Source: Ignavibacteria bacterium (GTDB taxonomy: Bacteria; Bacteroidota; Ignavibacteria; Kapaibacteriales; UBA961). From it: DNA of 40,637 nucleotides. The stretch spans positions 1 through 40,637 of the forward strand of contig VGWD01000021.1 in assembly GCA_016873735.1 (NCBI GenBank), read 5' to 3'. This document shows, piece by piece, positions 1 through 20,909 of this stretch (its first letter is position 1; each line of letters opens with the position of its first letter). The notes beneath the pieces were generated by a model that was not told the DNA's origin, did no database searches, and saw only the letters and a program-made list of their open reading frames with translations. A program made the translations under genes and the position numbers.

Positions 1-120
1 TGTATTGAATTATATGTAGTTATGATATTGTCAGTAGTATTACCGACCTCATCACAACAACTCAGTCACATCATCACAGTTCACATTCAACACAGTCTCA
101 TTCATCGGTATTGATAGGGG
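1..120 (+). repeat. Left arm of 120-bp perfect inverted repeat
   Basis: Base-by-base comparison with the reverse complement of 1548-1667 gives 120 of 120 matches. The match stops at the inner ends (after the GGGG at 117-120). The outer end is cut by the window edge, so the true arm may be longer. The arm is poor in G on this strand. It carries TCACA four times, at 52, 66, 74 and 81, which could be arm-type binding sites for the recombinase. Confidence 0.97.
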
Positions 121-154
121 TAAATCGATGAAAAAAGGGGTGATTACAGTATCT

Positions 155-197
155 AATTCGTAACCTTTTGGTCACTTTTTGAAAAAGGTTACGAATT
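155..197. repeat. 15-bp inverted repeat upstream of the recombinase
   Basis: Perfect 15-bp arms at 155-169 and 183-197 are separated by a 13-base spacer. The pair lies between the left long repeat and the recombinase start. No T-run follows on either strand, so it does not look like a terminator. A recombinase core site, or an operator controlling the recombinase gene, are the likely roles. The function is inferred from position only. Confidence 0.75.
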
Positions 198-318
198 TCC
201 CTACAAGTGAGTATTCATCAGTGTAGTTGGGTATTCGGATTTGAGGTAAAATGAGGTGATACTGAACACTTTTGGTGTCATTTACAGTAACCATTTAGGT
301 GTTGAATTGAACTCAAAA

Positions 319-1524
319 ATGACCGTCTCCTTTGTGTTATACACAAACAAAGTCAAGATAGACAAGACAATACCCATCTATCTACGGATATACTATTCCA
401 ATAAGATGGTTCAAATCTCTACAGGATTGAGTGTTCACAAACAATCTTGGAACAAGAAAACCAACCGTTTTCTCGGAAACAGTTTGGAAATCATGACCAA
501 GAATGAAACCTTGAAACTTCTAGAGTTGAAGGTTTGGAACATTTTCAACAATCTACTAAGACAAGAAATACCCTTCACGGTCTATTCAATCAGATCTAAG
601 TTACTTGGAGATGAAACCACTAAAGTCACTCTACTTCAAGTCTTGGAATTGTATCTCAACAGAATGGAAAGATTAGTTGGGAGTGATTATTCCCCATCCT
701 CACTTCAAAAGTATACGAATTCAAAAACTCGGATATTGGAGTTCATTCAGTTAAAATTCAATAAGAATGACTTACCTATTCATGAGGTGAACAATTCATT
801 CATGATGGACTTTCTTGACTATCTTAAAGTGAATGTAAAAAATCAACCAAAGACGGTTCAGAAACATTGTCAGAGAATAACAACAATGATGAACTATTCA
901 GTAAAGAGGGGTTTAATTGAGAAAGTCCCATTCAATGAAATCAGAGTGAAAGTCCCACCAAAATTGGTGACATATCTCACTCAAGAAGAGGTTGATAGAA
1001 TTGAACACAGAGATTTCAAGAATGAACGATTGAACATCATCCGTGATATGTTCATTTTCTCGGTGTATAGTGGGTTTTCTTACACGGAATTGAGAAACCT
1101 ACATGAAAGTCATACAAGAATGATAGACGGTCAAATGTGGGTGGAGATGATAAGACAGAAAACACGGAGACCATATAAAGTCCCACTACTTCCAAAGTGT
1201 GTGGAATTGATTGAACGATATAAAGACCATCCAAAGACAAAAGAGAATGGTCTTCTACTTCCACTTCCAACCAATCAGAAGTTCAATTGTTATCTCAAAG
1301 AGATACAAGACCTCTGTTCAATCAACACTACATTGACTTGTCATCTAGGTAGGAGGACTTTCGGTTCTACCATACTCCTCAGAAACAATATCAATATCCA
1401 TGTTATCAGTCAGTTGTTGGGACATTCATCAACCAATATCACTATCAAGTCTTATCTCGGTTCAGTTCCTGAATTGATGTTGAATGAATTCGATAAGATA
1501 AAATCAGTCTATGAGAGAGATTAA
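319..1524 (+). CDS. Tyrosine recombinase/integrase
   Basis: This is a site-specific recombinase of the tyrosine family in the layout common in Bacteroidota: an N-terminal arm-DNA-binding domain (about residues 1-65, ending in an ISTGLSV-type strand), a SAM-like core-binding domain (about 105-200), and a C-terminal catalytic domain. All catalytic residues are present: Arg259 (TELR), Lys281, His342 and Arg345 (HLGR), His369 (LLGH) and Tyr379 (IKSY). It therefore looks active. A GTG at 256 would add 21 residues. The ATG at 319 is preferred because the arm-binding domain begins there. It is the only gene between the 120-bp inverted repeats, and by eye it is more AT-rich than its neighbours, which fits acquisition by transfer. 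No partner gene (excisionase, relaxase, transposase) is present. Confidence 0.93.
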   Translation: MTVSFVLYTNKVKIDKTIPIYLRIYYSNKMVQISTGLSVHKQSWNKKTNRFLGNSLEIMTKNETLKLLELKVWNIFNNLLRQEIPFTVYSIRSKLLGDETTKVTLLQVLELYLNRMERLVGSDYSPSSLQKYTNSKTRILEFIQLKFNKNDLPIHEVNNSFMMDFLDYLKVNVKNQPKTVQKHCQRITTMMNYSVKRGLIEKVPFNEIRVKVPPKLVTYLTQEEVDRIEHRDFKNERLNIIRDMFIFSVYSGFSYTELRNLHESHTRMIDGQMWVEMIRQKTRRPYKVPLLPKCVELIERYKDHPKTKENGLLLPLPTNQKFNCYLKEIQDLCSINTTLTCHLGRRTFGSTILLRNNINIHVISQLLGHSSTNITIKSYLGSVPELMLNEFDKIKSVYERD

Positions 1525-1547
1525 GTTACACCCTTTACAATCTTACT

Positions 1548-1667
1548 CCCCTATCAATACCGATGAATGAGACTGTGTTGAATGTGAACTGTGATGATGT
1601 GACTGAGTTGTTGTGATGAGGTCGGTAATACTACTGACAATATCATAACTACATATAATTCAATACA
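1548..1667 (-). repeat. Right arm of 120-bp perfect inverted repeat
   Basis: This is the exact reverse complement of 1-120. It starts 23 bp after the recombinase stop codon and ends at 1667. The flanking sequence beyond it (1668-1710) is unrelated to the inside of the element and contains no gene. Confidence 0.97.
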
Positions 1668-1710
1668 GTTAGTAAAAGATTTATACCTACCCAACACTAC
1701 CATTACCAAC

Positions 1711-1745
1711 AAAAAAACCGATAATTACCTATTGTAATCATCGGT
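1711..1745 (-). terminator. Intrinsic terminator after tRNA-Ser
   Basis: Read on the minus strand, a 12-bp stem (1745-1734 with 1728-1717, one G-U pair) with a 5-base loop is followed by seven Ts (1717-1711). It lies about 30 bp past the tRNA 3' end and is a clear Rho-independent terminator for the rsgA/tRNA direction. Confidence 0.88.
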
Positions 1746-1773
1746 CACAAGTATCCAGTCTCTACCTGGGTTG

Positions 1774-1860
1774 CGGAGAAGGAGGGATTCGAACCCTCGA
1801 TAGGATTGCTCCTATAACGGTTTTCGAGACCGTCCGATTCAACCACTCTCGCACTTCTCC
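1774..1860 (-). tRNA. tRNA-Ser (anticodon CGA)
   Basis: The minus strand folds as a class II tRNA. The acceptor stem pairs GGAGAAG with CTTCTCC, there is a long variable arm, and the T-loop is GGTTCGAATCC. The anticodon loop is CTCGAAA, giving anticodon CGA, which reads UCG serine codons. The discriminator base is G, as expected for tRNA-Ser, and CCA is not encoded. It lies 39 bp downstream of rsgA on the same strand and may be co-transcribed with it. A strong terminator follows. Confidence 0.96.
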
Positions 1861-1899: not shown

Positions 1900-2997
1900 C
1901 TATTCTTCCAGACTCTCCACGATCTGCAGATAACTCACATAGCGTTCGGGGTCAATCAATTCTTCTTCCACCGCTTGTTTCACCGCACAATCAGGTTCAT
2001 GCCGATGCGTGCAAGAGGTGAATTTGCATTTGGGATACCATGCATCAAAATCATGAAAATAAAATGCGGTGTCATCAGGATGCATGTCCCATATTCCCAA
2101 TTCTCTCAATCCCGGTGTATCGGCAAGAAATCCTCCGCCGGGCATTGCAAACAATCGAGCGGAAGAAGTGACATGCTTGCCCTTCCAAGTGCGCTCGCTC
2201 ACTTCGCCGGTTCTTTGTAATTCCTCGCCCGTGATTGCATTGATGAGTGAAGATTTTCCCACGCCTGAAGGACCCGACAAGACCATTGAATGTCCGCGCA
2301 ATACTTCTGATAATTCCTCGATTCCGATTCCCTCCGCAACGCTCGTGAACATCATGGGGATTTTCAGCGTGTCAGAATACACAGCCAAATCCTCGGCAAT
2401 CAATTCTTGATCCATCAATTCAATTTTGTTGATGCAAATCAATGGCTCCAATTTTCCCAATTCAGCGGCAATCAAATATCGATCAAGCAAACGCTTATTG
2501 TAAAAAGGATCCGCAGCTGACATTACGATCAAAATGGAGTCCACATTGCTGATGATCACCTGCTCACCAGCATGCTTGCCAATACCTTTTCTGGATAATT
2601 GAGAAGTCCGCTTGCCAACTTCAACTATGCTCCCTTTCTTGATCCCCGTTCCATCATCCACAAACACAATCCCAACATGATCGCCAACAGCCAAAAGGGA
2701 AGTGTCCTCATGCATGGCAAAAACAGTACCCGCAGGCAAACATTCAAAAACCTCACCCGATTCAGATTGCACAAACCAAGTTCTGCCACCTACAGCCATC
2801 ACATGTCCGGATGCATCAATCATACCCTCGGGCGCTTGACCGGCCTTGATCATCGTGCGCGTCTCCTCCTTCTTGGATTGTACCCTGCCGGTGGATGAAC
2901 GAACATCCATCTCCTCTAGCCATGTCTCCTCAGTGGAATATGACTTTCTTTGCTTGATTTTGGCCTTTTTACCCGATTCTACTCGCTTTTTCTTCAT
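1900..2997 (-). CDS. rsgA: Ribosome small-subunit GTPase RsgA
   Basis: RsgA is a circularly permuted GTPase that checks late 30S ribosome assembly. An N-terminal basic tail leads into an OB-fold (about 60-130). The GTPase motifs follow in permuted order: G4 as NKIE at 190-193, G1 as GPSGVGKSS at 242-250, and G3 as DTPG at 293-296. A zinc knuckle follows (Cys324, Cys329, His331, Cys337). The 365 residues are close to the family length. The last residue of G4 is Glu where Asp is usual, a conservative change that touches guanine recognition. Its divergent neighbour is recJ. tRNA-Ser lies directly downstream on the same strand. Confidence 0.96.
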   Translation of the reverse strand: MKKKRVESGKKAKIKQRKSYSTEETWLEEMDVRSSTGRVQSKKEETRTMIKAGQAPEGMIDASGHVMAVGGRTWFVQSESGEVFECLPAGTVFAMHEDTSLLAVGDHVGIVFVDDGTGIKKGSIVEVGKRTSQLSRKGIGKHAGEQVIISNVDSILIVMSAADPFYNKRLLDRYLIAAELGKLEPLICINKIELMDQELIAEDLAVYSDTLKIPMMFTSVAEGIGIEELSEVLRGHSMVLSGPSGVGKSSLINAITGEELQRTGEVSERTWKGKHVTSSARLFAMPGGGFLADTPGLRELGIWDMHPDDTAFYFHDFDAWYPKCKFTSCTHRHEPDCAVKQAVEEELIDPERYVSYLQIVESLEE

Positions 2998-11002: not shown

Positions 11003-11928
11003 GGTTGAAGCTCCAATGCTCAACAATGTGTTCACTCCTCATCATGATCATGATGGGGAGTGTTCTCTTTACAGCCCCAATGTATTCTCAGGACCTTCCG
11101 ACAGATCCGGATGACATGTTTGACATAGAACTGCTTGATGATTCACTCGATGTATTACTTGATGATTCACTCGATATTCTACTGTCTGACACCACATTGC
11201 TTGCTGAGGAAATTGAGGAAGAATTTGAAGAAGAATTCCCATGGACTTTGAATTCCGGTATTTCTTTGCGCAATAGGCAGGTACAAAATGGGGTGGATTT
11301 AAGTGGGAGTCAGGGGTTATTGTCAATTGGGACTGAATTGTCTCATGATGGTGGAGTCTTGTTCGGATTCGATGCCGCAAGAAGAGTTGGAGATTCGCCC
11401 GGGCCCCAAGGTTGGAATGCACGTTTGGGTTATCAATATTCGGCAAGTGATTGGCTGGATCTTTCAGCGCAATTCACGCGATTCGGTTATCCATCCGATA
11501 CGATCAATCCTGTGGCAGGCATTCCGAACATGTTCTCTGTAAGTGCCACTGCTTTTTCTTCAGGATTGATGTTTGACCTTACTTTTGACCGCATGTTCGG
11601 TCCTGTTTCGGAGACGATCAATTATTTATCAGCAACCATCATGGCCATGACGCAATGGGGTAATCTCCGCATCACTCCGATTGCATCAATTGTGGGTACG
11701 CGGTATACCATTGCCACAAGACGCTTGCTTATCAATCGACCGGGAAAATTACAGACGATATCAGGTATAGCCATGACATCCATTGGATGTGCTCTTGCAT
11801 ATGATATATCAAGAGCATGGTCTTTGACCGCAACCCCAATGCTCCTCTATACTCCGCAGAAAGATTTCTCACGGAATGATGTTCAAGCAACATTTGTGAT
11901 TGGCATTCGACATCTGCTTGAGTTTTGA
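10999..11928 (+). CDS. Probable outer-membrane beta-barrel protein with acidic N-terminus
   Basis: A signal peptide (about 1-31) is followed by a strikingly acidic segment of about 50 residues with 21 Asp/Glu and no Lys/Arg, including the repeat LDDSLD twice and a run of Glu before FPW. The rest consists of alternating hydrophobic/polar strands rich in aromatic and glycine residues and ends in Phe, as outer-membrane barrels do. The family is not recognised. It is coupled to the small basic coiled-coil gene by a 4-bp ATGA overlap. The opposite charges of the two suggest they may bind each other; that is inference. Confidence 0.7.
   Translation: MRLKLQCSTMCSLLIMIMMGSVLFTAPMYSQDLPTDPDDMFDIELLDDSLDVLLDDSLDILLSDTTLLAEEIEEEFEEEFPWTLNSGISLRNRQVQNGVDLSGSQGLLSIGTELSHDGGVLFGFDAARRVGDSPGPQGWNARLGYQYSASDWLDLSAQFTRFGYPSDTINPVAGIPNMFSVSATAFSSGLMFDLTFDRMFGPVSETINYLSATIMAMTQWGNLRITPIASIVGTRYTIATRRLLINRPGKLQTISGIAMTSIGCALAYDISRAWSLTATPMLLYTPQKDFSRNDVQATFVIGIRHLLEF
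11134..11181 (+). repeat. Two 24-bp tandem repeats in the acidic segment
   Basis: Two adjacent 24-bp units (11134-11157 and 11158-11181) share their first 18 bases and encode the repeated LDDSLD segment. Copy number is a multiple of three, so slippage would lengthen or shorten the acidic region without breaking the frame. Confidence 0.75.
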
Positions 11929-19607: not shown

Positions 19608-20909
19608 TCACTTCTTTACTATCAATTGATTGATATTACCTTTTGTTGATGAAATCACCACATTATAGACCCCAATGGGGAATTGTGCCACATTGATGGG
19701 GTCTTGATTGTATTGCATGTGCATGCTTCTTCCATTCATGTCATAAACTGCGATGCGATTGATATCCGTTCTCAATGATGTGAATCGTATCATGTCATCA
19801 TGCATCACGAGAGGTTCTACTTCAGAAATCATCGTTTCTTCCTCAGAAGTGGCTCTGCAAGCCACATCCATGGTTAACTTCCACAGATCGCTCATATAGA
19901 AATTCGGAACATATCCGAGAGAATCGGGTGCTTGACCCATGCGTATCATAACAAGATCATGTTCTTTGGAGAATGAAACGAATTGACCGTTCTTACCCAT
20001 ACCTGATATTGCATCTTCCGGTGCTTCTTTCGCTAAATTCCCATTAAAGAAAAATTGGAATCCTGGAAGCATATATCCACCCTGACCGTTGAGCCACCAC
20101 AAATATCCATATGAGGGATTCAACACTTGAGAGCGCGTGATGCTTGCATTATAATACTCTCGATCTTTGATGATGGTATCCTTATTCCAAATTCCATTAT
20201 TGAGCATCATCAATCCAAAGCGAGCCATTGATCGTGGAGTACTGAAATATACATTGTTGAAGCCAAGCTTGAGCCAAGAGCCGGTCATCCCGATTTTTGT
20301 TTTGAGTGTGGTTGTCGTAAACGCATTGAGAGTTTGACCGGTGGCTTTTGTAAGAACTTCTTCCAATAATGTATAAGGTGCATTGTGATATGACCATCGA
20401 GTGCCCGGATCGGCAAGATAGGTAAGGCATGTATCATCGGTGCAATCGAGATCAATCCCTTCATCATTTAATCCGGTGGTCATGGTAAGTTGATTCTTGA
20501 TCGTGATGAGATCTTCCTTTTCCTTTGGCGTGGAAGTCCACCCAGAACCAAGATATGTTGAAGTCTTGTCTTCAATCGAAAGTAATTTTTCTTCTTGTGC
20601 CTTTCCTATCAATACCGAAGTAAGAGTTTTGCCGGCTGATGCCCAATACCATGCACTATCTTTTGTGAAAGTCCCGAAATATTTTTCAAGAACAATCCTG
20701 CCTTTATAGAGAAGTAAATACCCTTTTGTATTGGAACGTTCAAGATATTCATACAAAGCCGGAGTTTTTTCAGTACACCATCCCAGAGTGATTGCTGAGA
20801 GTGTGTCCCATTGCAATTGAGGATTCAAGGGGGGGAAATATCTCTGAGCTTGTACTTTAGCATTAGAAAAAATAACCAACAATGAGAGAGTGACAAGCAG
20901 TGCTCGCAT
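19608..20909 (-). CDS. Secreted serine hydrolase (beta-lactamase fold) with T9SS-like tail
   Basis: This is a class C beta-lactamase/DD-peptidase-like hydrolase. A signal peptide is followed by a catalytic domain with SAGK (nucleophile Ser and Lys, about 91-94), YHN (about 174-176) and a third glycine-rich motif GMGKNGQ. The last 65 residues (YDMNGR, FPIGVYNVVI, ending in LIVKK) look like a T9SS type A sorting domain, so the enzyme is probably secreted or surface-attached. The natural substrate is unknown; family members include esterases and peptidases. GGAG at 20917-20920 lies 7 bases before the ATG at 20909 and only 4 before the ATG at 20912, so 20909 is chosen. Confidence 0.87.
   Translation of the reverse strand: MRALLVTLSLLVIFSNAKVQAQRYFPPLNPQLQWDTLSAITLGWCTEKTPALYEYLERSNTKGYLLLYKGRIVLEKYFGTFTKDSAWYWASAGKTLTSVLIGKAQEEKLLSIEDKTSTYLGSGWTSTPKEKEDLITIKNQLTMTTGLNDEGIDLDCTDDTCLTYLADPGTRWSYHNAPYTLLEEVLTKATGQTLNAFTTTTLKTKIGMTGSWLKLGFNNVYFSTPRSMARFGLMMLNNGIWNKDTIIKDREYYNASITRSQVLNPSYGYLWWLNGQGGYMLPGFQFFFNGNLAKEAPEDAISGMGKNGQFVSFSKEHDLVMIRMGQAPDSLGYVPNFYMSDLWKLTMDVACRATSEEETMISEVEPLVMHDDMIRFTSLRTDINRIAVYDMNGRSMHMQYNQDPINVAQFPIGVYNVVISSTKGNINQLIVKK

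Follow-up and report, generated by a model that had tools for sequence, protein, structure and literature searches.

The window, i.e. the whole stretch of DNA that was analysed, comprises 40,637 bases and represents the entire contig C21 of genome G000, which has a size of 2.26 Mb in 61 contigs and a completeness of 99.89%. Its first 120 bases (1-120, plus strand; left arm, R) return as an inverted copy at 1548-1667 (minus strand; right arm, R'), with 1427 nt between them. The two arms are 100% complementary across 120 nt, which is far beyond chance, and the perfect inverted repeat that had been reported in a preliminary description was thus confirmed over all 120 bases. A continuation of the inverted repeat inward past 120 bp was not significant. 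No further long copy of the arm was found elsewhere within the window and none in the rest of the G000 genome. A partial match at 20605-20626 (22 nt, 86%) was set aside after its context had been read, since it probably results from chance. Apart from the arms, a 24-base direct tandem repeat was seen at 11134-11181 inside a predicted protein gene.

The sole long open reading frame between the arms was delimited mechanically at 256-1524, starting with GTG 256. In the remnants of this gene in two congeners (G003 and G004, see below), stops interrupt the frame that matches the N-terminus, while the ATG equivalent to position 319 is kept in G003, in G004 and in a copy beside a tmRNA. Since this ATG is conserved, the true start most likely lies at ATG 319, resulting in a predicted gene of 401 amino acids at 319-1524 (plus strand; int). 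The product showed an arm-binding domain (PF17293, 41.6 bits, cut-off 22.6), a SAM-like core-binding domain (PF13102, 49.0 bits, cut-off 22.3) and the catalytic domain of phage integrases (PF00589, 51.2 bits, cut-off 27.1) and is assigned by its sequence to the IntCTnDOT-type tyrosine integrases. Only integrase families matched, and no DDE transposase was found. Relatives of the integrase are widespread in the phylum, with best matches of about 30-35% identity and E-values down to 7e-76; a search with short exact peptides gave no relatives in genome_contigs or viral contigs.

The recombinase had been described as catalytically complete. This holds true for K302, H363, R366, H390 and Y400, which are all present, but not for the usual first catalytic arginine (Arg I), which is replaced by a serine at residue 275 (numbering of the frame from GTG 256). 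The Arg-I position is occupied by A, S, G or P in 27/27 aligned sequences, and R300 is invariant in the same 27 sequences together with the five residues named above. Because R300 sits two residues ahead of the catalytic lysine, it may represent the substitute arginine. The CTnDOT integrase is functional also without the usual first arginine. For the IntCTnDOT subgroup it is described that the first catalytic arginine occupies one of two alternative places (PMC8138268). CTnDOT and NBU1 of this subgroup comprise the same combination of PF17293, PF13102 and PF00589 and likewise lack Arg I while having an alternative conserved arginine, and the subgroup occurs, like the window integrase, in Bacteroidetes and relatives (PMC8138268). 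Unlike in CTnDOT and NBU1, no conjugation or mobilisation genes were seen adjoining the window integrase, and long inverted repeats lie on both sides of it.

The key to the locus is a tRNA-Ser(CGA) gene at 1773-1860 (minus strand), which is absent from the preliminary description. It is presumed to be the integration target. Between its end and the right arm lie 105 bases, which include the intrinsic terminator of the tRNA gene (1716-1746, minus strand). Since int is encoded on the plus strand and the tRNA on the minus strand, the 3' end of int lies nearest to the tRNA. On the far side of the tRNA, a gene at 1900-2997 (minus strand) forms a conserved host flank in 7/7 genomes of the genus; as judged from its sequence, it is presumably an rsgA-like GTPase gene. 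In 6/7 genomes of the genus a contig ends at most 2 kb downstream of tRNA-Ser(CGA), compared to 1.1 expected (P ~1.5e-5, which is somewhat optimistic since the site was picked after the contig end of the window had been seen). Based on this clustering, the site either varies in several populations or is difficult to assemble, and an integration hot spot is suggested. A pattern search of the genome that allowed 3 mismatches found no displaced tRNA 3' end as direct repeat (att/attR), although one could lie in the gap beyond base 1.

For comparison, the loci of the 29 closest relatives of the integrase for which loci were fetched were considered. In 25 of these 29, a tRNA or tmRNA lies 140-520 bp upstream of the integrase, and in 25/25 on the same strand. 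The window integrase is the exception, as it is not located downstream of its tRNA on the same strand. Long inverted repeats flanking the integrase were found in 0/29 relatives, with only two isolated 14-base matches, and the wider flanks, considered for 20 regions that largely coincide with these loci, contained no inverted repeat of at least 16 bases. The Islander-type tRNA/tmRNA genomic islands (PMC4383910) likewise comprise an integrase adjoining a tRNA or tmRNA, as is the case for the window and for the relatives, of which many lie at tRNA-Ser and one at a tmRNA. Unlike these islands (PMC4383910), the window integrase is reversed with respect to the tRNA and no displaced tRNA fragment was found.

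The same site is occupied by related sequence in two other Ignavibacteria, G004 (ZE-13oct10-104) and G003 (UBA961). In both, the same tRNA-Ser is succeeded by a matching spacer, a single arm, the leader and the initial 20 codons of int, after which the sequence is unrelated. The left arm is 83-91% identical to the segment that separates tRNA-Ser from int in these genomes, and the int leader (121-318, plus strand) is 93-95% identical, as measured over 121-255. In G003 and G004 the tRNA-proximal arm runs into the int leader, compared to the int 3' end in the window. Since both remnants show the order tRNA, arm, leader and int start, the arm is, as judged from these alignments, an element-borne segment with its normal place between the tRNA and the start of int, and the module in the window is reversed relative to the congeners. 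In genome_contigs the arm was found on only two Ignavibacteria contigs, which are the remnants of G004 and G003, and it is absent from the remainder of the order (123 genomes) and from viral contigs, where the int leader was not found either. The search of related genomes advised by the preliminary description gave remnants in G003 and G004, but no inverted pair outside G000.

Within the leader, a palindrome at 155-197 (plus strand) comprises a 15-bp perfect stem with a 13-nt spacer, and its centre lies about 144 bp ahead of int. It looks like an operator and is regarded as a putative one on the basis of its sequence. A stem of at least 10 bp within the 190 bp upstream of int was found in 17/30 sequences (the window and the 29 relatives), although some of the stems counted for other relatives probably represent terminators of tRNA genes. 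Upstream inverted repeats with a stem of 10-16 bp and a spacer of about 10-22 nt were seen in L141, L143-L145, L147-L151, L153, L162, L163 and L168, and in many integrases of the clade the repeat is located mostly 100-145 bp before int. The half-sites often resemble GTnACC, and both halves vary together between elements. At 287-296 of the window, a third half-site-like GTAACC lies close to the start codon. Palindromes of this kind, which precede many integrases in the clade, are candidates for a role in integrase regulation that could be tested.

A second remnant in G003 is located beside a tmRNA, where G003:C101:33916-33980 matches positions 1616-1690 of the window. The shared sequence starts inside the right arm and reaches 1690, i.e. 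23 bp past the arm, so that the flank at 1668-1690 (minus strand) is common to both loci. Since the homology crosses the arm boundary, the element does not seem to terminate at position 1667, and the earlier view of a recombinase enclosed by the repeats is not supported. The alignment further gives two R-like segments in direct orientation at the tmRNA locus of G003. These two segments lie downstream of the tmRNA, at about 5690-6345 of L064 (G003:C101), together with an int fragment split by a short repeated sequence.

These observations also bear on the earlier proposal of a minimal, IS-like mobile element, in which a lone tyrosine recombinase would transpose by means of 120-bp terminal inverted repeats. 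The architecture corresponds to the one drawn in that proposal, and tyrosine-recombinase elements with terminal inverted repeats are known, of 13-19 bp for SEs and of 34 bp for RIT elements (PMC10214605). Both types likewise carry tyrosine recombinases between inverted repeats, but contain several such genes and have repeats of 13-34 bp, compared to one gene and 120 bp in the window (PMC10214605). The three recombinase genes in a row of a RIT element were not found, as only one recombinase lies between the arms. Furthermore, the structure occurs as a single copy in the genome, its arm is confined to G000 and the remnants of G003 and G004 in the collections searched, related sequence extends past the arm, and the relatives are integrases on the side of a tRNA or tmRNA without inverted repeats. 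A minimal mobile element is therefore considered very unlikely.

A comparison of the identities showed 83-95% to G003 and G004 for spacer, arm, leader and int start, while the neighbouring rsgA-like gene showed 79%. Since the identity of the element region exceeds that of the host gene, this region may either have moved between species or be constrained. In G002, which is the closest congener by the rsgA-like gene, different DNA follows tRNA-Ser. Both observations would fit an independent insertion, in which an element with symmetric ends entered the same tRNA in opposite orientation in the G000 lineage and nothing flips, as the high similarity suggests a transfer after the species split. However, the tRNA-linked relatives all show one orientation, as expected if the tRNA end fixes the orientation, and symmetric ends were not seen in the relatives. 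This explanation is regarded as unlikely.

The start of the left arm coincides with the first base of the contig, which agrees with the earlier statement that the window starts inside the repeat. No contig in the G000 bin was found to continue the left arm beyond base 1, and the arm may be truncated by the contig end. Together with the normal order in both congeners and in the 25/25 tRNA-linked relatives, this could be explained by a misassembly or a chimeric junction at the contig end, in which case the genome would truly comprise tRNA, R, leader and int, and the contig would have been joined through R the wrong way. Among the fetched contigs of G000, overlapping contig ends share 127 or 126 bases with their partners, from which the assembly's overlap word follows. 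That the arm, with its 120 bases, is a plain k-mer overlap of contig ends was therefore rejected. The earlier suggestion of an assembly that stopped at a repeat is consequently retained with respect to the contig end, but not in the form of a k-mer overlap. According to the standard behaviour of de Bruijn graphs, a fold-back loop at a word size of 127 bases should leave arms of 127 bp, although a chimeric or minority junction could still account for the structure. As the arm falls short of this 127-base word, a genome with a single arm is not expected to yield this contig by repeat collapse, and the junction of the int 3' end with the inverted arm (1547/1548) must exist in the reads. Altogether, a misassembly is considered rather doubtful, though a serious possibility; if the structure is an artefact, it would be a useful warning on inverted repeats at contig ends.

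A possible continuation of the locus is located on contig C31, which carries the genes that follow tRNA-Ser in G004 and then 6.6 kb of mostly AT-rich DNA to the contig end. Two of these genes are presumably MbnP-like and MauG-like, as judged by eye. At 12286-18569 of L093 (G000:C31), the AT-rich DNA encodes a secreted-type protein of 1169 aa as well as a repeat protein that is incomplete. The AT-rich stretch could be the rest of the island between tRNA-Ser and those genes. Parts of it are 82-85% identical to DNA of G001 and G005, compared to 72% for the rsgA-like gene between G000 and G001. Since these parts recur in G001 and G005, and C21 and C31 share no overlap, the stretch is not counted as belonging to the element.

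Altogether, it is assumed with a probability of roughly 50% that the integrase module of an island associated with tRNA-Ser gained a second, inverted arm and was flipped. The normal order would be tRNA, terminator, arm R, leader with the operator-like palindrome, and int reading away from the tRNA, with R probably being the region of the integrase arm-type sites. In G000, int would have gained a second, inverted copy of R at its opposite end, and R-int-R' would have been turned around by recombination of one arm with the other, mediated by the integrase or by homologous recombination across the 120 identical bp. The arms would stay identical through repeated exchange or gene conversion. We infer that the flip is a cellular event and not a product of the assembly, and the same applies to its reversibility and to the enzyme involved.

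The flip is favoured by the perfect 120-bp arms, by the opposite orientation of the same-locus remnants in G003 and G004, where R and then the leader lie beside the tRNA, and by the same-strand position of 25/29 relatives downstream of a tRNA or tmRNA without a long flanking inverted repeat. The arms are identical to each other, yet diverged by 9-17% from those of the congeners, which would be the consequence of sequence exchange between them or of a recent duplication. Multiple arm copies per site are also present at the G003 tmRNA, there in direct orientation, and the arm is shorter than the contig overlaps of 127 or 126 bp. The flip is weakened by the unassembled far side of the left arm without continuation in the bin, by the absence of the inverted pair from relatives outside G000, by the two orientations being known from separate genomes and not from one population, by the lack of a tRNA-end direct repeat (att) elsewhere in the genome, and by the fact that an independent insertion in opposite orientation would look alike. 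Among the three options of the preliminary description, the self-inverting segment is the best supported because of the opposite orientation in two congeners at the same tRNA, though the two orientations are known from different genomes. Explanations other than the flip, a misassembly, an independent insertion and a minimal mobile element are together given hardly any weight.

Invertons (e.g. PMC5903667) likewise comprise a segment between inverted repeats with an orientation that differs among related genomes, and the window shows flanking inverted repeats together with an opposite orientation in two congeners. Unlike these invertons, the arms of the window comprise 120 bp, the recombinase gene itself lies inside the segment, and the difference in orientation is one between genomes. 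It is conceivable, if improbable, that the integrase gene lies in a segment which its own product inverts at the opposed arm-site regions, so that the element next to the tRNA switches from excisable to locked and back. If the flip indeed occurred, a tRNA-side integrase module would have turned around between two opposed copies of the DNA from its own attachment side. The integrase would then be uncoupled from the arrangement of its tRNA-linked relatives, which could explain locking or decay of such islands.
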